A DNA stretch of 36,427 bases, from positions 1 through 36,427 of the forward strand of contig JALOTG010000056.1 of NCBI GenBank assembly GCA_025458005.1, given 5' to 3'. Below, piece by piece: positions 12,407-23,965 of the stretch (positions are counted from its first letter, which is position 1; every line of letters begins with the position of its first letter). The notes under the pieces are model-generated. The model made no database searches, had not been told where the DNA came from, and was given only the letters and a program-made list of their open reading frames with translations. Source of the stretch: Thiobacillaceae bacterium (GTDB lineage Bacteria; Pseudomonadota; Gammaproteobacteria; Burkholderiales; Thiobacillaceae). The position numbers and the translations under genes were made by a program.

Positions 12407-13948
12407 ATGTTCGGCTTCTTCAAGAGGAACAAGGACAAAGAAGACCCGCTGAGCGATCTGCGCACGGTGTCGCGCTGGATGGGCAACCTGCCCGCCGGGG
12501 ACATCTACTCGGCCCAGGAGCAGGTGGTGCAGAGCCTGATCCAGTTCAACCACGCCAAGCTGCCCATGTCCAAGGAGCGGCTCGCCGTGCTCATGCACCT
12601 GGACGAGCAGGCCCGCGACATGCAGTACTCCCTGTGCAGCCAGTACCTGCGCAACCCGCGCATGTCCAAGGTGATCGAGTCCCGACTGTGGACCGCCATC
12701 CATGCCTTCTACTGGGAGCTGACCCGGGGCTACCACGCCTTCCTCATGGATTTCGTCTCCAATCCCGGTGGCAGCCGCATCCAGGCAACGGTGCCACTGA
12801 TTGCCGCGCGGGCCATCCGCGGCTTCGCGGACATCTTCAAGTGGCGCTATTTCCGTTACGAGAAGATCGACGAGCGGCTCTGGCTCAGGCAGCACAACCT
12901 CTACCGCATTGCCGAGTTCGACGGCTTCCAGGGCAGCAAATTCAAGCTCTACGCCAATGAAGCCCAGGCCTCCAGCTGCGAGGTGGAGTATCTGCACGCC
13001 CTGCTGCTCTCCCCCCTGGGCGCCGGCAGCCTGACGCCCCGGCAACTGGAGATGGTGGATCATTGGCTGGACAACTGGTCCCATCTGCTCAGCCTGGATA
13101 ATCTCCACGACCCGGCACGACACCATTTTTCGGTGGACACCGCACGCGGCCAGGGGTTGCGCCGGGTCGGCGAGGAGAACGATCCGACCTGCCGCTTCAT
13201 CTCCACGGAAAAGCTCCTGGAGCACTTGGAGGTGGTCAAGCGTTCCCTGAAGACCGGGGCCACCGCCGCTTCCCTCGGCCTGGGCGAGGAATTCCGCCTC
13301 CCCGACGGCTACGATCTGCTCGAGTTCGTGAGCGGCGAATGGTCCGCGGTCAGCGAGCGTGACCGCCGCCGCGCGCCCCGCAATCAGGAACAGAGCCGCT
13401 GGGAGGTGATCCGCGACCTGGCCAACATCTGCCTGCGCATCCAGGCCGACAGCGAATTGGCCTCCGGCTCCAGCGTCCGGGAAGGGCTGAGCCCGGAGGA
13501 GATCCTGGACATCAAGCTGTACGGTTTCGTCACCGAGCGCACCAAGTCCGCCCTGCACCAGCGCACCCTGAGCACGGGCCGCCACGACGCCTACGAACGC
13601 TGGCGCCTGGGCGTCGTGCGGCGCATCACCCGCGTCGACCAGGAATGGCGCAAGATCGGCGTCGAATTCATCAGCGACCGGCCGCGTCTGGCCCACATCG
13701 ATCCCGAGGCCATGGCCAGCATGAGCTACAGCGTGGACGACGCCGGCCTGCTGCCCAGCGGCCAGTCCGCCACCGTCCTGCTGGTACCCATCGGCGACGC
13801 GGAACTGATCCTCATGGAGAGCGCGAAATACGCCCACGGCAAGACCTATCGCCTGCAGCACGACGGCGACACCGCGCACATCCGTCTCGACACCGTGCGC
13901 GACAAGGGCGACGGCTGGCTGCTGTCCACCTACAGCGTGGTGGGCTGA
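12407..13948 (+). CDS. Conserved hypothetical cytoplasmic protein
   Basis: A 513-residue protein that I cannot assign. It begins MFGFFKRNKDKEDPLSD, has no signal peptide or membrane segment, and is largely alpha-helical for the first 300 residues (for example YSAQEQVVQSLIQFNHAK near 34-51). The C-terminal third has a segment RWRLGVVRRITRVDQEWRKIG near 395-415. It is followed by short strands rich in glycine, valine and leucine, reminiscent of a small beta-barrel of PilZ type. The diagnostic PilZ RxxxR and D/NxSxxG pair is not clearly present, so that is only a hint. It starts 24 bases after alaS and ends 51 bases before the sigma-54 regulator, so the three may be one transcript. A signalling role is conceivable from its neighbour but unproven. 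Confidence 0.85.
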   Translation: MFGFFKRNKDKEDPLSDLRTVSRWMGNLPAGDIYSAQEQVVQSLIQFNHAKLPMSKERLAVLMHLDEQARDMQYSLCSQYLRNPRMSKVIESRLWTAIHAFYWELTRGYHAFLMDFVSNPGGSRIQATVPLIAARAIRGFADIFKWRYFRYEKIDERLWLRQHNLYRIAEFDGFQGSKFKLYANEAQASSCEVEYLHALLLSPLGAGSLTPRQLEMVDHWLDNWSHLLSLDNLHDPARHHFSVDTARGQGLRRVGEENDPTCRFISTEKLLEHLEVVKRSLKTGATAASLGLGEEFRLPDGYDLLEFVSGEWSAVSERDRRRAPRNQEQSRWEVIRDLANICLRIQADSELASGSSVREGLSPEEILDIKLYGFVTERTKSALHQRTLSTGRHDAYERWRLGVVRRITRVDQEWRKIGVEFISDRPRLAHIDPEAMASMSYSVDDAGLLPSGQSATVLLVPIGDAELILMESAKYAHGKTYRLQHDGDTAHIRLDTVRDKGDGWLLSTYSVVG

Positions 13949-13999: not shown

Positions 14000-15427
<1,428 letters not shown>

Positions 15428-15431
15428 TGGC

Positions 15432-15504
15432 GGTGAGGAGTGAGGAGTCAGGCGTGAGGGGTAACACCCAAAACAGACCTGCGCCTCACCCCTCACCCCT
15501 CACC
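15432..15504. repeat. Iterated GTGAGG inverted repeat
   Basis: The 23-base left arm (15432-15454) is built from GTGAGGA/GTGAGGAG units. The right arm (15482-15504) is the complement of GGTGAGG/GGTGAGG/GGTGAGGCG units. The arms match at 20 of 23 positions around a 27-base loop. It fills the whole space between the regulator and the ATPase gene, ending five bases before the ATG. It looks like a dispersed palindromic (REP/MITE-like) element rather than an ordinary terminator, since there is no T run. Confidence 0.75.
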
Positions 15505-15508
15505 CTCG

Positions 15509-17206
15509 ATGGCCCACTATCCCGATCCCCCCAAGCTAGGCGAGTGGCTGCTCGGCCAGGGCCTGATCAGCCATGACCAGCTGCGCATCGCGCTCACCGA
15601 GCAGGGCGCCAGCGGCCTGCCCCTGGGCCGCCAGCTGATCGCCCTGGGCTTCGTCACCGAGGGCACCATGCGCGACGTGCTGGCGCAGAACGCCGGCGAG
15701 TCGAGCATCGACCTGTCGCATGTGGTGGCCGACCCGGAGGCCGTCCAGCTCGCCCCCGAGCAGCTTGCGCGGCGCCACGGCATGCTGCCCCTGGCGGTGG
15801 ATTTCGACGCGCGGCTGCTCACCGTGGCGGTGCCGGACCTCTACAACCTGGTCGCCCTGGACCAGCTGCGCGCCCACCTGGAGGGGCGCTTCGAGATCCG
15901 GCCCATCCTGGCCGCGGAGGCGCAGATCCTCGAGTGCCTGGACAAGTTCTACGGCTTCGACCTGTCGGTGGACGGCATCCTGCGCGAGATCGAGACCGGC
16001 GAGCTGGACTACGTCTCACTGCAGAGCGGCGGCGGCGAGTACACCCAGCCGGTGGTGCGCCTGGTCAACGCGCTGCTGGCGGACGCCGTCAAGCGCGGCG
16101 CCTCGGACGTGCACTTCGAGCCGGAGGCCGGCTTCCTGCGCATCCGCTACCGCATCGACGGGGTGCTGGAGCAGACCCGCAGCCTGCACCGGAAATACTG
16201 GCCGGCCATCGCCGTGCGCCTGAAGGTGATCTCCGGCCTGAACATCGCCGAATCGCGCGCCGCCCAGGACGGCCGGCTGTCCCTGACCCTGTACGGCCGG
16301 CCGATCGACTTCCGGGTGTCGGTGCTGCCCACCCTGCATGGCGAGAACATCGTGCTCCGGGTGCTGGACCGGGAGAAGTCGATCATCCCCCTGGACCGCA
16401 TGGGCCTGCCGGAGGACACCCTGGAGGGGCTCAAGTCGGCGATCAGCCGCCCGGAGGGCATCCTCATCGTCACCGGGCCGACCGGCTCGGGCAAGACCAC
16501 CACCCAGTACTCGCTCATCTCCCACCTCAACCGGGAGGACGTCAACATCATGACCCTGGAGGATCCGGTGGAATACCCCCTGCCCCTGATCCGCCAGACC
16601 TCGGTCAGCGAGATGGTCAAGGTGGACTTCGCCGGCGGCATCCGCTCCATCCTGCGCCAGGACCCGGACATCATCCTGGTGGGCGAGATCCGCGAGCGGG
16701 AGACCGCCGAGATGGCCTTCCGCGCCGCCATGACCGGGCACCTGGTGCTGTCCACCCTGCACACCAACTCCGCCCTGGGCGTCTTCCCCCGCCTGCTGGA
16801 CATGGGCATTCCGCCCGGCATCCTGTCCGGCAACGTGATCGGGGTGATCGCCCAGCGCCTGGTGCGCCGCCTCTGCCCGCACTGCAAGGAGGCCCACGCG
16901 CCCGACGAGGCCGACCGGCGCTGGCTGGGCATGGACGCACAGGGAACCGTCTACCGGGCGGTGGGCTGCGTGCATTGCGCCTTCAAGGGCTATCGCGGCC
17001 GCCTGCCGCTGATGGAACTGCTGCTCATCGACGAGGAACTGGACGCCGCCCTGGGGCGCGGCGCCACCGCCCGGGAACTGGCCGACCTGGCCGCCGGCAG
17101 GGGTTTCCGCCCCCTGGCCCTGGACGGCATCCGCCGCGTCCTCTCGGGCGAGACCTCGCTGGCGGAGGTGGCCCGGGTGGTGGACCTGGCGCGGCGCTTC
17201 GGATGA
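15509..17206 (+). CDS. GspE/PilB-family assembly ATPase with MshEN-type N-terminus
   Basis: A 565-residue secretion/pilus extension ATPase. The N-terminus holds two 24-residue motifs (residues 9-32 and 38-61) separated by five residues, matching the MshEN cyclic-di-GMP-binding pattern; the first residue is Lys instead of Arg. The catalytic part has Walker A GPTGSGKT at 323-330, Walker B IILVGEIR near 388 and a His box STLHTNSA. A tetracysteine zinc site (CPHC and CVHC, about 30 residues apart) marks it as an extension-type GspE/PilB/MshE ATPase rather than a retraction PilT. It would power pseudopilus or pilus growth at the inner membrane. The start ATG has no ribosome-binding site, because the GTGAGG repeat lies immediately upstream. 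First gene of a five-gene operon. Confidence 0.95.
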   Translation: MAHYPDPPKLGEWLLGQGLISHDQLRIALTEQGASGLPLGRQLIALGFVTEGTMRDVLAQNAGESSIDLSHVVADPEAVQLAPEQLARRHGMLPLAVDFDARLLTVAVPDLYNLVALDQLRAHLEGRFEIRPILAAEAQILECLDKFYGFDLSVDGILREIETGELDYVSLQSGGGEYTQPVVRLVNALLADAVKRGASDVHFEPEAGFLRIRYRIDGVLEQTRSLHRKYWPAIAVRLKVISGLNIAESRAAQDGRLSLTLYGRPIDFRVSVLPTLHGENIVLRVLDREKSIIPLDRMGLPEDTLEGLKSAISRPEGILIVTGPTGSGKTTTQYSLISHLNREDVNIMTLEDPVEYPLPLIRQTSVSEMVKVDFAGGIRSILRQDPDIILVGEIRERETAEMAFRAAMTGHLVLSTLHTNSALGVFPRLLDMGIPPGILSGNVIGVIAQRLVRRLCPHCKEAHAPDEADRRWLGMDAQGTVYRAVGCVHCAFKGYRGRLPLMELLLIDEELDAALGRGATARELADLAAGRGFRPLALDGIRRVLSGETSLAEVARVVDLARRFG

Positions 17207-17213
17207 GCTGACC

Positions 17214-18419
17214 ATGCCCTACTACCGCTACAAGGCTGGCGACCTGGCGGGACACCAGGCCAGCGGCGAGATGTACGCCGCCAACGAGGTGGACGTGGAG
17301 TTGCGCCTGCGGCAGATGGGCCTGGTCCTCATCCGCCTGCGCGCGCAGACGGGCCTGCGCTGGCTGCCCTGGCGGCGGCGCGTGACGCGCCGCGAACTGA
17401 TCGGATTCTGCTTCCACATCCAGCAACTGGCCCGGGCCGGGGTGCCGCTGCTGGACGGCCTGCGCGACCTCATCGCCGTAACCGGCAAGTCCCATTTCCG
17501 CGACGTGCTGTCCCTGGTGGCGGACGACCTGGAGGGGGGCAAGCTCCTGTCCGAGGCCCTGGCTGCCCATCCACGGGCGTTCGACGAGGTGTTCGTCGCC
17601 CTGGTGCAGGCGGCCGAGGCCAGCGACCAGCTGAGCTACGTGTTCGCCCAGCTCGAGGAGCGCCTCAAGGCCCAGGAGGAACTGGAGGCCGAATTCGCCC
17701 GCCTGCTGATCTATCCCGCCGTGGTGGCGCTGGCGGTGCTGGCCGCGGCCGGCGTGCTGCTGTTCTACCTCACCCCCAGGCTCGCCCTGCTGGTGCACAG
17801 CCTGAACATGCCGGTGCCCGCCGTCACCCGCTGGCTGATGACCCTGTCCCTGGGGCTGCGGGACCACCTGCCCTGGCTGGTCGTCGTCCTCGCCGCCCTG
17901 GGACTGGCCGGCGCCCTGGCCTGGCGGCGGATGGCATCCCTGCGGGACACCCTGGACAGCCTCTGGCTGCGTCTGCCCGCCATCGGCGAGGCGGCCAGGA
18001 AGCGGGCCCTGGCGCGCTTCACCAGCCTGCTCGCCCTGCTCACCCAGTCGGGCCTGAACATCCTCGAAGCCCTGTCCGCCTGCGAACACAGCGTCGGCAA
18101 CCGTCACCTGGCCCGGCGGATCGCCCAGGCCGGCCAGCTCATCGCCGCCGGCGAGACGGTCAGCGCCAGCTTCCGCGACATCGACCTGTTCCCGCCCCTG
18201 GTCCTGCGCATGATCCACACCGGGGAGAGGAGCGGCGCCCTGGCGGAGGCCCTCAACAACGCGGCCTGGTTCTTCGCCCGCGATGCGCGCGAGACCGTCG
18301 CCCGCGCCCTCAAGCTGCTGGAACCCGCCCTGGCCCTGCTGCTCGGCGGCCTGCTGGCGTTCCTGCTGCTGGCGGTATTTCTGCCGGTCTATCAGATCAT
18401 CGGGGAGATCCGGCTGTGA
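17214..18419 (+). CDS. GspF/PilC-family inner-membrane platform protein
   Basis: A 401-residue polytopic protein, the normal GspF/PilC size. It begins YYRYKAGDLAGHQASGEMYA, as in the family. It has two T2SSF domains, one starting near LIGFCFHIQQLARAGVPLLDGL (residues 63-84), the other near FTSLLALLTQSGLNILEAL (about 269-287). Membrane segments fall around residues 165-188, 207-241 and 373-394. It would be the rotary platform that converts ATPase motion into pilin extraction. It starts eight bases after the ATPase stop, and its TGA overlaps the GTG start of the next gene. No second copy is in the window, so this is the platform of the orphan system. Confidence 0.95.
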   Translation: MPYYRYKAGDLAGHQASGEMYAANEVDVELRLRQMGLVLIRLRAQTGLRWLPWRRRVTRRELIGFCFHIQQLARAGVPLLDGLRDLIAVTGKSHFRDVLSLVADDLEGGKLLSEALAAHPRAFDEVFVALVQAAEASDQLSYVFAQLEERLKAQEELEAEFARLLIYPAVVALAVLAAAGVLLFYLTPRLALLVHSLNMPVPAVTRWLMTLSLGLRDHLPWLVVVLAALGLAGALAWRRMASLRDTLDSLWLRLPAIGEAARKRALARFTSLLALLTQSGLNILEALSACEHSVGNRHLARRIAQAGQLIAAGETVSASFRDIDLFPPLVLRMIHTGERSGALAEALNNAAWFFARDARETVARALKLLEPALALLLGGLLAFLLLAVFLPVYQIIGEIRL

Positions 18420-19903
18420 TCGGCCGACCGCGCCGGCTGCTGCTCTATGTCTCCAGTGCCGGGGCCAGCTGCGCCTTCCAGGATGGCCAGGCCCTGCGTG
18501 AGGTACGCGCCCTGGCCGCCGACGCGGAGGGCTGGGAACAGCTCAATCGCCTGATCCTGGCTCATCCCCGCGTCCCTCTTTCCATCGTCGTGGACTCCGT
18601 GGAGGAGCTCTATCGCAGCGAGGCCCTGCCGCGCGCGTGGGGACGCGACCGCCGCGACATGCTCGGCCGGCGGCTGCGCCAGGCCCTGCACCAGACCCCC
18701 TATCGGGCCGTGTTGCGCCAGGGGCCGGCCGATCCCGGCCAGGTGGGGCGGCGCTACCTGTTCATGGGACTCACCGCGCCGGAGATCCTGCGCCCCTGGC
18801 TGGACGTGATCCGCCTGCGCGGCGCCCCGCTGGCCGGCATCTGGCTGGCCCCGCTGCTCAGCCGCACCCTGCTGCCCCGCTTCGGCCTGACGGCGGCCAA
18901 GCTGCTGCTGGTCTCGGAACAGACCGGCGGTCTGCGCCTGTCCTATTTCGAGGCGGGCCAGCTGCGCTTCTCGCGGCTGGCGCCGGTGGACAGCGCGCTG
19001 TACGAGAACCCCCTGGAGGGCTACGGGGAGGAAATCGAGCGCACCCGCCAGTTCCTGCTCTCGCAGCGTCTGCTGACGCGGGAGGAGCTCCTGCCGACCT
19101 ACCTCGTCGACCCCCTCGACACCCTGGACGAACTGCGCGGCATCCTGCCCGCGTCCGCCGGCTTCCGCTGCGAAACCATCCCGCGCGGCCGGATCCTGAG
19201 CGAGTTGCGGCTGCCGCCAGGTCTGCTGTCCGAATCGAGCGACGCCCTGTTCCTCGCCCTGCTCGGCGACGCGCCGGGCGAGGCCAACCTGCTGCCCGAG
19301 GAACTGCGCCGCGCCTATCGGCATTTCCGCCTGCGCCGCTGGCTGTACGCCGGCGCCGCCCTCTGCCTGAGCGCCACGACCCTCGCGAGCCTGGCCTTCC
19401 TGGCCGATGCCTGGCGCCACGACCGCGCCGCCCAAGCGTATCGCGAGCAGGCCGTCGAGGCCCGTCGGCAGGCCGGCGCCCTGCTGGCCAGGGCGGGGGA
19501 CGCCGCCCGCTTCGCGCAGGTGGAGGCCACGGTGCGAGCCTGGCGGCGGGTCACGGACCAGGCCGCTGATCCGGCCGCCGCCCTGAGCGGCGTGCTGGCC
19601 GTCTGCCAGGCGCGTCCCGGCATCCGCGTCACCAAGCTCGACTGGACCGGACAACGGTCGAACACCGGCGAGACCGTGCTGGCGCAGGGCGAGGTGCAGC
19701 CCTTCCTGGGGGATTACCAGGCTGCCCACCAGGCTGTCGGTGAACTGGTCGCCGCCCTGGAACGGGCCGGCTGGCGGGTGGTGGTGGAACGCTGGCCGGC
19801 GGATCCCGCCTCGAGCCGCGACCTGCGGGGCGAATTCGGCCGCGTGCAGGGCAACCAGATCGCCGCCTTCCAGCTTCGCCTGGTGCGGGAAGGCAGGCCA
19901 TGA
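18416..19903 (+). CDS. PilM/PilN-like or GspL-like assembly protein
   Basis: A 495-residue bitopic protein. Residues 1-300 are cytoplasmic and show the alternating strand and helix pattern of an actin-like (PilM/GspL) domain. One transmembrane helix follows at about 309-331. The remainder is periplasmic with an alpha-helical stretch (about 335-380) and an alpha/beta end, as in PilN or the C-terminal part of GspL. The assignment rests on architecture and position, between the platform gene and a PilO/GspM-like gene, not on strong motifs. It would link the ATPase to the periplasmic alignment complex. It starts with GTG overlapping the previous stop, and its TGA overlaps the next ATG, so the genes are translationally coupled. 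Confidence 0.75.
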   Translation: MIGRPRRLLLYVSSAGASCAFQDGQALREVRALAADAEGWEQLNRLILAHPRVPLSIVVDSVEELYRSEALPRAWGRDRRDMLGRRLRQALHQTPYRAVLRQGPADPGQVGRRYLFMGLTAPEILRPWLDVIRLRGAPLAGIWLAPLLSRTLLPRFGLTAAKLLLVSEQTGGLRLSYFEAGQLRFSRLAPVDSALYENPLEGYGEEIERTRQFLLSQRLLTREELLPTYLVDPLDTLDELRGILPASAGFRCETIPRGRILSELRLPPGLLSESSDALFLALLGDAPGEANLLPEELRRAYRHFRLRRWLYAGAALCLSATTLASLAFLADAWRHDRAAQAYREQAVEARRQAGALLARAGDAARFAQVEATVRAWRRVTDQAADPAAALSGVLAVCQARPGIRVTKLDWTGQRSNTGETVLAQGEVQPFLGDYQAAHQAVGELVAALERAGWRVVVERWPADPASSRDLRGEFGRVQGNQIAAFQLRLVREGRP

Positions 19904-20457
19904 GCCTCCTGCCACCGAGACCCCTGTGGCTGCCCCTGGCCAGCCTGGTCGTGGCCCTCGTCCTGGGCGCCCTGTCCTACGGCGTGACGCGGCACCTGCG
20001 CCATGAGGCCGCCGCGGAACGGGCACGGGCGGAGCTGGAATGGCGCGCGGCCAGCGCGGACCTGGCGCGGATGCCGGCGCGGATCGAACTGGTGAAGGGG
20101 GCCGCCACCCTGCACGCGGATCTGCAGCGGCGCGGCTTCCTGGGCCCCGAGCGCAGGCTGGAGTGGCTCTCCGCCCTCGCCAGGGTGCATGCCGGCATGG
20201 GCCTGGACAGCCTCGCCTGGCGGCTGGGACCGCGTGCCCCCGACCCCCGCCTGCCCGGCCTGGGTTGGTCCAGCCTGGAGATTCGCGCCGCCCCGCTGGA
20301 CGCCGCCGGTCTGCGGACCTTCCTGACGCGGCTAGCCGACGAGTCCCCCGGCCTGTTCACGGTGCGGCGCTGCACCCTCCTCGGCGATCACGGCGGCGGC
20401 CAGGCGGAGTGCGTGCTGGACTGGTGGACCCTGGCCCACGCGAGGCCCGCGCCGTGA
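19900..20457 (+). CDS. PilO/GspM-like assembly protein
   Basis: A 185-residue bitopic inner-membrane protein. One N-terminal transmembrane helix spans about residues 9-28. It is followed by a charged helical stretch (to about 65) and a small alpha/beta periplasmic domain that ends in DWWTLAHARP. This is the standard PilO/GspM layout, and such proteins share little sequence, so the call depends on size, topology and gene order. It would pair with the upstream protein to form the alignment subcomplex. It overlaps the preceding stop by four bases (ATGA) and its own stop overlaps the next GTG. Confidence 0.7.
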   Translation: MSLLPPRPLWLPLASLVVALVLGALSYGVTRHLRHEAAAERARAELEWRAASADLARMPARIELVKGAATLHADLQRRGFLGPERRLEWLSALARVHAGMGLDSLAWRLGPRAPDPRLPGLGWSSLEIRAAPLDAAGLRTFLTRLADESPGLFTVRRCTLLGDHGGGQAECVLDWWTLAHARPAP

Positions 20458-21194
20458 CCATCGCCTGCCGCGGCTTCACCCTGATCGAACTGGCCATCGT
20501 CCTGTTCATCCTGACCCTGCTCATGGCCGGGGTGATGACGCCCCTCACCCAGCAACTGACGGCGCGCCAGGAGGCGGACACCCGCAGGGCGCTGGAGGAG
20601 GCCCGCATCAGCCTGCTCGGCTATGCCATCAGCCACCGCGACGCCGGCCAGCGCCCCTATCTGCCCTGCCCCGACCGCCGCGACGGCGCCGGCCCCGGCC
20701 AGGCCAACGACGGCCTGGAAGACCGCCTGCCGGACGGCCGCTGCGCGACACTCGCCGGCAATCTGCCCTGGCTCGGCCTGGGCCTGGCCGAGACCGACGC
20801 CTGGGGCAACCGGCTCACCTACGCGGTGGCGCCGGGTTACGCCCACGGCGCCGAGGGCATCCGTCCCCACCCCGCCCCACCCGCCACCCTGAAGATCTGT
20901 CTGGATCGGGACTGCGCCCGTCACGCCCTGGTCGCCGCGGTGCTGCTGTCGCATGGCCGCAACGGGCTGGGCGCCCGGAACGCCGCGGGCGGACGCAACC
21001 GACCGCCCAACGGACAGGACGAACTGGAGAACGCCGACGCGGACGAGGTGTTCATCTCCCGCGCCATGGCGGCGGCGGACCGGCCGGGCGGCGAATTCGA
21101 CGACCAGGTGGTCTGGCTCTCGCCCAGCCAGCTGTTCGGCCGCCTGTGCGGCGAAGCGGCCGCCTGCGGCGCCGGGACGGGCGGCGCCGACTGA
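20454..21194 (+). CDS. Type II secretion/pilus-like pseudopilin
   Basis: A 246-residue prepilin. The short leader MTIACRG is followed by FTLIELAIVLFILTLLMAG, giving cleavage after Gly7 and glutamate at +5. The globular part is large for a pilin and carries YLPCPDRRDG near 63-72, DAWGNRLTYAV near 117-127 and a C-terminal EFDDQVVWLSPSQLFGRL near 215-232. Several cysteines could form disulfides. The DxWGN motif resembles the major pseudopilin GspG, but here it is the only pilin in the operon. It starts with GTG overlapping the previous stop. No secretin or prepilin peptidase gene is in the window. It converges with the SPOR gene after 33 bases. Confidence 0.9.
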   Translation: MTIACRGFTLIELAIVLFILTLLMAGVMTPLTQQLTARQEADTRRALEEARISLLGYAISHRDAGQRPYLPCPDRRDGAGPGQANDGLEDRLPDGRCATLAGNLPWLGLGLAETDAWGNRLTYAVAPGYAHGAEGIRPHPAPPATLKICLDRDCARHALVAAVLLSHGRNGLGARNAAGGRNRPPNGQDELENADADEVFISRAMAAADRPGGEFDDQVVWLSPSQLFGRLCGEAAACGAGTGGAD

Positions 21195-21227: not shown

Positions 21228-21911
21228 TCACGGCGGCGCCGGGCAGGCGCGCTCCTCCAGTCCTGGCCTGTCCTTGAGCAGGGCGCGCAGTCGTTCGATG
21301 CGGACCGGGTCGGCCCCCGCGGCGAACAGGATCAACTCGCCCACCCCCGGCCGGGGCCCGTATTCCAGCTTGTCCAGCCCCTTGCCGCGCAGGAACTCGC
21401 GATGGGCGCGGGCGTCCGCCTCGCTGGCGAACATGCCGAAGGAGATGGCGCGCGCCATCGGCCCGCGCCGTATCGGCGCCACGTCCCTGACCCCGGCCTT
21501 GCCGATGGCCGCCAGCACCTGGACCTGCTCGACGGGATCGCTGATCGGCGGCCAGTACACCCACCAGCCGAGCCGCTCGTCCACGCGCAACTCCACGCTG
21601 TCCAGGCCGGCATCCCGGAGGGCCTGGCGCAGGGTCGTGTAATCGGCGGCGCCCCCCAGGGCGGCGACCAGGCAGAGCGGGCCGGCACCGGGACTTTCCG
21701 TCGGGGTCGCCGCGTCCGCTGTCTTGGCCGCCGGGCGCTCCGCCGTTCCCGGCCCCGGCTGGCCAAGCAGCCGCACCTTGTCGGCGTTGTAGCCCGCCAG
21801 CAGCCTGGGCTGGCCCTGCCAGCGCTGCAACGCGAGGCCCGCCGCCAGCAGCAGCACGTTCGCCAGCAGCAGCCACAGCACCACGCGTCCGCCCCGACCC
21901 ATGTCGGTCAT
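21228..21911 (-). CDS. SPOR domain-containing membrane protein
   Basis: A 227-residue bitopic protein with one N-terminal membrane helix (about residues 9-28) and a low-complexity linker rich in Pro, Ala and Thr near 50-75. The C-terminal region carries SPOR-like motifs (ISFGMFASEADARAHREFLRGK near residues 157-178). SPOR domains bind denuded glycan strands at division sites. The chosen ATG at 21911 overlaps the coaX stop as ATGA; the frame is open for ten more codons, but those overlap coaX. The birA-coaX-SPOR order is a common arrangement in beta- and gammaproteobacteria. A division or envelope role is inferred from the domain. Confidence 0.88.
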   Translation of the reverse strand: MTDMGRGGRVVLWLLLANVLLLAAGLALQRWQGQPRLLAGYNADKVRLLGQPGPGTAERPAAKTADAATPTESPGAGPLCLVAALGGAADYTTLRQALRDAGLDSVELRVDERLGWWVYWPPISDPVEQVQVLAAIGKAGVRDVAPIRRGPMARAISFGMFASEADARAHREFLRGKGLDKLEYGPRPGVGELILFAAGADPVRIERLRALLKDRPGLEERACPAPP

Positions 21912-22660
21912 GCCTGTCCCGGTTCTTCCCATGCCATCCACCGCAAACCCTCCAGCACCAGATCCTCCACCCTGACCAGCGGCCCGGCCAGCAGGCCGGC
22001 CAGCAGCGTGGCATCGCCGCCGGTCAGCACGACACGCGCCGGCCCGCCGGCCCGTCGCGCCAGCCGGCCGCGCAGGTGCTCGACGGCGCCGGCCAGGGCG
22101 GCGCGGATGCCGGTCTCCACCGCGTCCCCCGTGCGGCGGGGAAAGTCCCGCGCCTGGCCGTTCACGTCGCTCACGCCGGCCGTGCCCTCGCCCAACGCCC
22201 GCCGCATCAGGGCCACGCCCGGCAGGATCAGGCCGCCGAGGAATTCGCCGCCGGCGTCCAGGGCGTCCACCGTCAGCGCCGTGCCCGCCCCGACCACCAC
22301 GCAGGGCGCCAGCCCCAGGCGCAGGGCGCCCACCAGCATGGCGTAGCGGTCGGCGCCCAGCCGATCGGGCGGATCATAGCGGTTGCGCAGGCCGTGGCGG
22401 TGGGCTTCGGGCCGCAGCCAGTGGACCTCCCCGCCCAGGTCCCGGACTACCCCCGCCAGCCGCTCGCGCAGGTCGGCCGAGGCCACGGAGCTCACGCCGA
22501 TCCAGCCGGGGGCCTGGCCGGCCAGGCGTCCGGCCAGCGCGTCGCCGAGCCGCTCCACCTCGGCGGCGGGCAGCCAGCCCCTGGCCAGCCAGTCGCCCCG
22601 CCCCGCCGGGCAGATGCCCCATTTGAGGCGGGTATTGCCCAGGTCCAGCAGCAGGATCAT
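21908..22660 (-). CDS. coaX: Type III pantothenate kinase
   Basis: A 250-residue enzyme phosphorylating pantothenate in the first step of coenzyme A synthesis. Phosphate-binding DLGNTRLKWG is at residues 6-15. GADRYAMLVGA (102-112) contains the catalytic aspartate, and GAGTALTVD (124-132) is the second nucleotide-binding segment. The frame is open upstream, but ATG 22660 is where CoaX proteins begin. It overlaps the end of birA (whose stop is at 22698) only in the extended form; with this start there is a 37-base gap. CoaX enzymes are insensitive to CoA feedback. The stop overlaps the SPOR start. Confidence 0.96.
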   Translation of the reverse strand: MILLLDLGNTRLKWGICPAGRGDWLARGWLPAAEVERLGDALAGRLAGQAPGWIGVSSVASADLRERLAGVVRDLGGEVHWLRPEAHRHGLRNRYDPPDRLGADRYAMLVGALRLGLAPCVVVGAGTALTVDALDAGGEFLGGLILPGVALMRRALGEGTAGVSDVNGQARDFPRRTGDAVETGIRAALAGAVEHLRGRLARRAGGPARVVLTGGDATLLAGLLAGPLVRVEDLVLEGLRWMAWEEPGQA

Positions 22661-22697
22661 GTCGGCGTACCCCTCGCGTCGCTTGCCCGGCGCAGGC

Positions 22698-23534
22698 TCA
22701 CCCCTGCCAGGCATGCAGCTCCTGCCAGGCCCGCCGGAAGGGGGCGAAGCCCTCCTGGTCGAAGGCCGGCAGGACCTCGCCCAGTTCGGTGGCCAGGGCG
22801 GCGAGGAGCTCGTTGCGGTCCACCGCGCGGCCGAGGGCGGACTCCAGGTCGGCCACCGGCTGGCCCACCTCGGCGGCCAGCCGATCGGCGGCGCGCAGGT
22901 TGACGCCGACGCCGATCACCGCCGCCGCCGGTCCGAGCATGTCGCCGGACAGCTCGATGAGGATGCCGGCCAGCTTGGCGTCGGCCCGCAGCAGGTCGTT
23001 GGGCCACTTGAGCCGGAGGTCGGCGGCGCCCAGCCGGGTCATGGCGCGCGCCAGGGCGACGCCCACCGCCAGGCTCAGGCCGGACAGCATGGACAAGGGC
23101 CGCCTGAAGCGCCAGAGCAGGGAAAAGGTCAGGCTGCCGCCGAGCACGCCGCGCCACTCGCGACCCCGGCGGCCGCGGCCGCGGCTCTGCCATTCGGCGG
23201 CCAGCAGGGTGCGGTGGGGGGCGCCGGCCTCGGCCAGCTGCTGCAGCCTCAGGTTGGTGGAATCGGCCTCCGCGAGGCACAGCACGTGGAAGCCCGCGGG
23301 CGCCAGGGCGGTGGCCAGGCGGCCCTCGTCGAGCAGATGCAGGGGTTCGGCGAGCCGGTAGCCGCGGCCGCGCACGGACTGGACCATCACGCCCAGATCG
23401 GCGGCCTGGCGCGCCAGGCCGTGCACGCTGGCGCGGGACAGGCCGAGGCGGTCGGCGATGCGCTCTCCGGAACGGAAATCGTGGTGATCGAGCTGCCGCA
23501 GGAAGGCGAGCAGCCGGGGATGCAACGCGCCCAA
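22698..23534 (-). CDS. birA: Bifunctional biotin protein ligase / biotin repressor
   Basis: A 278-residue BirA. Residues 1-60 form an N-terminal winged helix (IADRLGLSRASVHGLARQ), so it can act as a repressor as well as a ligase. The ligase core has EADSTN near 89, GRGRRGREW at 119-127 and the KWPNDLL motif near 176. It attaches biotin to acetyl-CoA carboxylase. The likely start is TTG at 23534, eight bases after the pilE stop, with GGGGG just before it. Another TTG three codons on (23525) has better spacing to that run. No ATG is available. Its place behind the pilin genes suggests read-through from the minor-pilin operon. Confidence 0.95.
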   Translation of the reverse strand: MGALHPRLLAFLRQLDHHDFRSGERIADRLGLSRASVHGLARQAADLGVMVQSVRGRGYRLAEPLHLLDEGRLATALAPAGFHVLCLAEADSTNLRLQQLAEAGAPHRTLLAAEWQSRGRGRRGREWRGVLGGSLTFSLLWRFRRPLSMLSGLSLAVGVALARAMTRLGAADLRLKWPNDLLRADAKLAGILIELSGDMLGPAAAVIGVGVNLRAADRLAAEVGQPVADLESALGRAVDRNELLAALATELGEVLPAFDQEGFAPFRRAWQELHAWQG

Positions 23535-23542
23535 GCCCCCGG

Positions 23543-23965
23543 TCAGCGCTGCCAGCAGTCGGCCACGTTCCCCGAGCTCACGCCCTGAACCCCGGTATGC
23601 GTCAGGGTCAGGTCCCCGCAGTCGGCGCCGGTCTGGGCGCCGGTAGGCCTGGCCCGCAGGGTATAGCTCTGGGCGCCGATGGCGGACACGGTGATGTTGT
23701 AGCGCGCCGCGCCGGACTTGGGCGCCTGGGTGACCGGCAGGGCGGGTGGCGTGGTGCCCGCGGCGTCGGTTGAATAACGGCCATTGGTGGTGTAGTAGCG
23801 TTCCATCCAGCTGGCCAGTTCCATCAGCACCGCCTTGGCGTCGGCCCGCGCCGAGCGCTGGATGTGGTCCTGGTAGGACACCGCCGCCACGCTGACCAGG
23901 ATGCCGACGATGGCGACCGCCACCAGCAGCTCGATGAGGGTGAAGCCCCCTTGCCGTCGATTCAT
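23543..23965 (-). CDS. pilE: PilE-type type IV minor pilin
   Basis: A 140-residue type IV pilin. The leader MNRRQGG is followed by FTLIELLVAVAIVGILVSVA, with cleavage after Gly7 and glutamate at +5. The middle contains SARADAKAVLMELASWMERYYTTNGRY, a typical PilE stretch, and two cysteines near the C-terminus (in GADCGD and VADCWQR) that should form the D-loop disulfide. GGGAGGCAAC precedes the ATG. It is the last pilin gene of the fimT-pilV-pilW-pilX-pilY1-pilE operon; in this position PilE is usually a minor tip subunit rather than the major pilin. Confidence 0.95.
   Translation of the reverse strand: MNRRQGGFTLIELLVAVAIVGILVSVAAVSYQDHIQRSARADAKAVLMELASWMERYYTTNGRYSTDAAGTTPPALPVTQAPKSGAARYNITVSAIGAQSYTLRARPTGAQTGADCGDLTLTHTGVQGVSSGNVADCWQR

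Follow-up and report, generated by a model that had tools for sequence, protein, structure and literature searches.

The five-gene block A-E at the centre of the window, a 36,427-nucleotide stretch of DNA from a Thiobacillaceae bacterium, is predicted from its sequence to be a variant derived from the MSHA type of filament system and not a new kind of system. The original prediction had proposed a self-contained, separate kind of system; the block instead corresponds in synteny to an MSHA-type operon, of which it is a reduced form. The five ORFs all lie on the plus strand where they had been placed, and the block contains no secretin, prepilin peptidase or second pilin. The first gene, A (15509..17206), encodes a 565 aa MshE-like assembly ATPase with an MshEN domain and is followed by B (17214..18419), which encodes a GspF/PilC/MshG-type platform. 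The next gene, C (18416..19903), encodes a GspL-like protein with a PilM-like cytoplasmic domain, a transmembrane helix and a PilN/GspL-like periplasmic domain. The last two genes, D (19900..20457) and E (20454..21194), encode a PilO/GspM-like small bitopic protein and a 246 aa type IV prepilin with a GTG start, respectively. The tight packing with overlapping stops and starts described earlier holds for B/C, C/D and D/E, which overlap by 4 bases each, and does not extend to A/B, which are separated by a 7-base gap. Two further plus-strand genes precede the block. U (12407..13948) encodes a 513 aa, weakly PilZ-like protein and is always found 5' of R (14000..15427), which encodes a sigma-54-dependent response regulator composed of a receiver, an AAA+ and a Fis-type HTH domain. 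U and R are constant companions upstream of A-E in all 19 secretin-less loci and form part of the same conserved unit. Minus-strand genes with prepilin-type N-termini, at 23.9, 29.2, 29.7 and 30.3 kb, fit the minor-pilin operon reported to the right of the block. Three minus-strand genes, coaX, birA and one for a pilE-like pilin, lie 3' of the block (window 21908-23965), an arrangement seen in some 12 of the 19 loci without a secretin.

The gene product of A exhibits matches to the Pfam families T2SSE (E=3e-121) and MshEN (E=2e-14), and both the P-loop and the tetracysteine motif are present. Against the NCBIfam model of the MshE-type c-di-GMP motif it scores 58 bits, above the cut-off of 38, and it falls under the equivalog cut-offs of GspE (498 vs 630 bits) and PilB (494 vs 676 bits). 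The c-di-GMP-binding MshEN domain consists of two 24-residue RLG...Q motifs (PMC5013675). In the window's A, motif I is kept (K9, L10, G11, G18, L25, L29 and Q32), as are L39, G40, G47 and L58 of motif II, which has P at position 38 and N at position 61. The binding of c-di-GMP by A is unsure because of this altered second motif. The gene product of B contains two repeats of the T2SSF domain identified by Pfam (E=1e-43) and falls under the GspF equivalog cut-off (266 vs 424 bits). A and B have their orthologues in the ATPase and platform of MshL-bearing operons.

Neither C nor D exhibits any match above cut-off in Pfam or NCBIfam. An AlphaFold2 model of C, built on an alignment of 19 orthologues (pLDDT 84), consists of a cytoplasmic actin-like domain, a long transmembrane helix and a small periplasmic domain. 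The cytoplasmic part is structurally similar to PilM (2ych, Z 16.6) and cyto-EpsL (1yf5, Z 15.6), with FtsA tying, and the periplasmic part to XcpY, a GspL (5n7l, Z 10.9, 80/80 residues, rmsd 2.5). Because of these matches to PilM/EpsL and XcpY, C is predicted to be GspL-like, that is, a PilM-PilN fusion. D has one N-terminal transmembrane segment with the rest of the protein in the periplasm, and is called PilO/GspM-like from gene order and topology only; no profile match was obtained for it, alignment-based searches included. PDB profile searches with D and with U likewise returned no match.

The prepilin E was identified by the Pfam N_methyl domain (E=4e-6) and possesses Glu5, and an alignment of 21 sequences shows six Cys residues conserved within the secretin-less clade. 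Its AF2 model (pLDDT 89) features a helix at residues 10-60 and a beta-rich head. Foldseek gave no significant match of this fold in the PDB, and VIA-align placed type IV pilins as the best matches, weakly (Z 3.5-4.1) and with no functional clue. E is thus a pilin, yet it matches no MshA-specific model. It had been regarded as an unusual pilin, yet it is not peculiar to the orphan block: complete operons, too, end with an E orthologue.

The position of U is kept in 19/19 secretin-less loci, and in Thiobacillus-type genomes U lies between alaS and R. A PilZ domain (PF07238) was matched in 4 of 12 U orthologues, with a best E-value of 2e-4; the window's own U has no Pfam match. For R, Pfam identified PF00158 (E=6e-64), PF00072 and PF02954, and the protein falls below the cut-offs of the PEP_resp_reg and ntrC models. 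In the complete operons R is the gene preceding mshM. An apparent frameshift near the end of R occurs in one MAG locus (L069:7449-8962; also L179) and is possibly a sequencing error.

The window's assembly is a draft of 3.19 Mb in 329 contigs, approximately 90% complete. Its type IVa pilus (T4aP) genes are located elsewhere, with pilB/C/D on contig C305, pilT/U on C203 and pilQ on C8, and it has two T2SS-like clusters, on C43 and C229. The block is accordingly distinct from the main T4aP and from the T2SS-like clusters, as had been proposed. The possibility that A and B are the genome's only PilB/PilC or GspE/GspF, which would have made the system an ordinary one, was looked at and is not the case; as the only PilB/PilC they are rejected by the pilB/C genes on C305. 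The T2SS-like clusters on C229 (L009) and C43 (L010) encode GspG-like pilins, and their secretins carry a fused TPR lipoprotein part at the N-terminus. MshL was not found among the genome's three secretins at the curated cut-off (best match 140 vs 250 bits). The block is not self-contained, because the only prepilin peptidase found in this genome is PilD on C305, outside the block. It is not a type IVa pilus system, as A is under the PilB equivalog and PilT and PilMNOPQ are encoded elsewhere in the genome, nor a T2SS, as GspD, GspC and several pseudopilins are absent from the block and A and B lie under the GspE/GspF cut-offs.

The P0001 search found relatives in 80 genome loci; with P0003, relatives were found in 146 of the 300 genomes from the order and in 80 of the 117 from the family. 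Among the loci in which secretin presence can be decided, 19, including the window, have the arrangement U-R-A-B-C-D-E with no secretin and 54 carry MshL in the operon; another 7 end too early for this. Conservation of the exact five-gene block, one of the points raised at the outset, is therefore observed in 19 distinct loci with a single pilin each, and the same gene order in all of them argues against a chance arrangement. In the literature searched, no study describing the operon in Hydrogenophilales or Rhodocyclales was found. The order in the secretin-less loci is alaS-U-R-[A-B-C-D-E], or ATPase-platform-GspL-like-PilO-like-pilin. Thiobacillus-type genomes of the window's family (G350 and G345, which we take to be T. 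denitrificans ATCC 25259) have the order alaS-U-R-mshM-mshL-mshN-A-B-C-D-mshK-like-E with no tip pilin. The Rhodocyclales operon is ordered R-mshM-mshL-mshN-A-B-C-D-mshK-like-giant tip pilin-E, and its secretin scores above the cut-off of the MshL equivalog (268.9 vs 250.2 bits). The giant tip pilin of these operons (L093:14568-17690) is 922-1041 aa in the two that were read and has no Glu5; its N-terminal part is homologous to E and the remainder appears lectin-like by eye. Compared with the complete operons, mshM-L-N are gone between R and A in the secretin-less loci and the mshK-like gene is gone between D and E. Within the secretin-less loci no residual similarity to MshL, MshM, MshN or MshK was found, and mshM is absent in 19/19.

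A tree of the concatenated A-E proteins (76 rows, 1886 columns; a quick tree with no mixture model, drawn at midpoint) places the secretin-less loci in one clade with a support of 100, sister to complete operons of the same family, and complete operons from other families fall outside both. Because the secretin-less loci form one fully supported clade that is sister to complete operons, the outer-membrane module of mshM-L-N and the mshK-like gene is predicted to have been lost once. The direction, loss rather than gain, follows from the shared alaS-U-R locus and from the complete operons on all other branches; ancestral absence of the secretin is rejected by the same locus and tree. The reduction looks stepwise, with the tip pilin going first and the outer-membrane module next. 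A secretin hidden in an assembly gap is rejected, since R directly precedes A and D is adjacent to or overlaps E; the block also lies inside long contigs of 354 kb (L060) and 235 kb (L059). Relocation of MshL in trans is rejected too, as the MshL clusters of sister genomes at L193 and L201 are complete separate MSHA operons, and several block-bearing genomes have none. The separate operons at L193 (G088:C35) and L201 each encode a protein of more than 1000 aa beside the pilins.

The mandatory genes of the MSH model are mshA (as a loner), mshE, mshG, mshL and mshM (Denise et al. 2019, PMC6668835). Under this model the block does not count as an MSHA system because mshL, at the locus and in the genome at the cut-off, and mshM, at the locus, are missing. 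It does have what characterises a generic type IV filament system, an ATPase, a platform and a pilin in one cluster (PMC6668835), and would fall in the 'generic' class of Denise et al. The likeness to MSHA lies in the MshEN domain of A and in the orthologues of A-E, which in Rhodocyclales and in Thiobacillus-type genomes share operons with MshM, MshL, MshN and an MshK-like protein. The block differs in the absence of the mandatory mshL and mshM as well as of mshN and mshK, in the GspL-like PilM-PilN fusion and in the single pilin.

Two near-complete genomes carry the block, G310 (L178, 100% complete) and G312 (L179, 98% complete). Their single secretin is PilQ (the pilM...PQ cluster was read in G310), and their only T2SSE proteins besides A are PilB, PilT and PilU, as assigned by place and score, PilB being the one other assembly ATPase. 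From this gene content the block does not depend on MshL or on a T2SS secretin, so that it would work either without a secretin or else through PilQ. Of these two readings a periplasmic endopilus of the single pilin E, linked to c-di-GMP and sigma-54, is favoured at roughly even confidence, because connector and secretin were lost together. Following the shedding of the outer-membrane module by an MSHA-type filament operon, PilD would process prepilin E in trans, and the MshE-like A would dock on C and D and act through platform B. E may then be polymerised into a short, inner-membrane-anchored filament which, with neither a secretin nor a PilP/MshK connector, would not leave the periplasm and would form an endopilus. 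Judging by its position, R would control transcription of the block. The activity of the block may be under the control of c-di-GMP, acting on the MshEN domain of A and perhaps on the PilZ-like U, as suggested by the MshE-type N-terminal domain of A and the weak PilZ signal of the U proteins. Possible roles of such a filament are envelope remodelling or bracing, or the moving of a periplasmic substrate. Meningococcal filaments can be assembled by a set of eight proteins, PilD, E, F, G, M, N, O and P (Goosens et al. 2017, cited in PMC10191384), and filaments made without a secretin remain periplasmic (PMC10191384).

The second reading, in which a second pilus exits through the T4aP PilQ with PilP as connector, rendering the MSHA-type outer-membrane genes redundant, is a plausible but lesser candidate. 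At least one secretin occurs in every block-bearing genome inspected (PilQ in G310 and G312), PilD is already shared, and the co-option of secretins is reported to be common in the superfamily (PMC6668835). In about 12 of 19 loci the block also has the T4aP minor-pilin operon as its neighbour, although this adjacency reflects genome position, with coaX and birA intervening on the other strand. A borrowed secretin is further opposed by the loss of the connector MshK along with MshL and by the docking on PilP/PilQ that it would demand of the GspL-like C. It is unlikely that the block instead feeds or modulates the T4aP, with E as an extra minor pilin and A as a second extension ATPase. The neighbouring minor-pilin operon, the c-di-GMP-linked ATPase and the PilZ-like neighbour would suit such an accessory, but its own platform, C and D would be superfluous, and the block descends from a complete, separate system that had its own secretin.

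Selection on the retained genes bears on whether the block could be the decaying remnant of a lost pilus. Pairs within the secretin-less clade exhibit dN/dS values of 0.06-0.13 for A, 0.09-0.15 for B, 0.14-0.24 for C, 0.23-0.47 for D and 0.19-0.33 for E, and all five genes are under purifying selection. The periplasmic domains of C and D show no relaxed constraint: with R as the reference, their rate of change does not exceed that in Thiobacillus-type operons. Purifying selection and the absence of faster change in C and D therefore argue that the block is not a decaying remnant. Several genes have been lost, R is seemingly frameshifted in one MAG (L069) and dN/dS is somewhat above that of Sulfuritalea-type complete operons, yet the five ORFs are intact across a deep divergence (approximately 50% identity in C), dN/dS stays within 0.06-0.47 and selection is not relaxed relative to Thiobacillus-type operons, which makes decay quite improbable. 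Use of a T2SS-like secretin of the same genome (C43 or C229) is very improbable indeed, since G310 and G312 keep the block with neither cluster, even though two TPR-secretin clusters with GspG-like pilins are present in the window's genome.

Returning to the endopilus, a close parallel is the minimal T4aP of Neisseria meningitidis, which resembles the block in the extension ATPase, the platform, PilM/PilN (fused in C), the PilO-like D and one pilin, and also in a peptidase acting in trans and the lack of a secretin. The block has no counterpart of PilP, one of the eight minimal proteins, and the meningococcal set was engineered whereas the reduction of the block is natural and old. The monoderm Com pilus (ComGA/ComGB/ComGC) is alike in having core components with no secretin; the block differs in its diderm host, in keeping C and D, and in having one pilin and no competence minor pilins. 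The T2SS shares the order of ATPase, GspF, GspL-like and GspM-like proteins and the idea of an endopilus, but the block has no GspD, GspC or minor pseudopilins, and its A and B are under the GspE and GspF cut-offs. Secretin loss has been tied to monoderms, in which the outer membrane itself is gone (Denise et al., PMC6668835); here the secretin module was lost once in a diderm lineage, with the inner-membrane motor and pilin intact. The block may represent a dedicated, naturally evolved diderm periplasmic filament machine, the secretin-free inner-membrane half of an MSHA system with a single cysteine-rich pilin, a description offered tentatively and just short of even confidence. Genomes like G310 and G312, with only a T4aP and the block, provide a simple natural test of whether a type 4 filament has a role without leaving the cell or, alternatively, of the takeover of one system's secretin by another.

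Two minor observations concern the region of R. R (window 14000-15427) and the MshM of complete operons (L093:3935-5503) give their best scores, below cut-off, against the XrtA/PEP-CTERM regulator and ATPase models, hinting at a possible shared ancestry with exosortase gene clusters. The intergenic region between R and A (window 15428-15508) is an inverted repeat with units GTGAGGAGT... and CCTCACCCC. The word CCTCACCCCTCACC from this region also occurs in the window's genome at C43 (L010:7950) and C226 (L013:3828), and the region therefore belongs to an interspersed repeat family.
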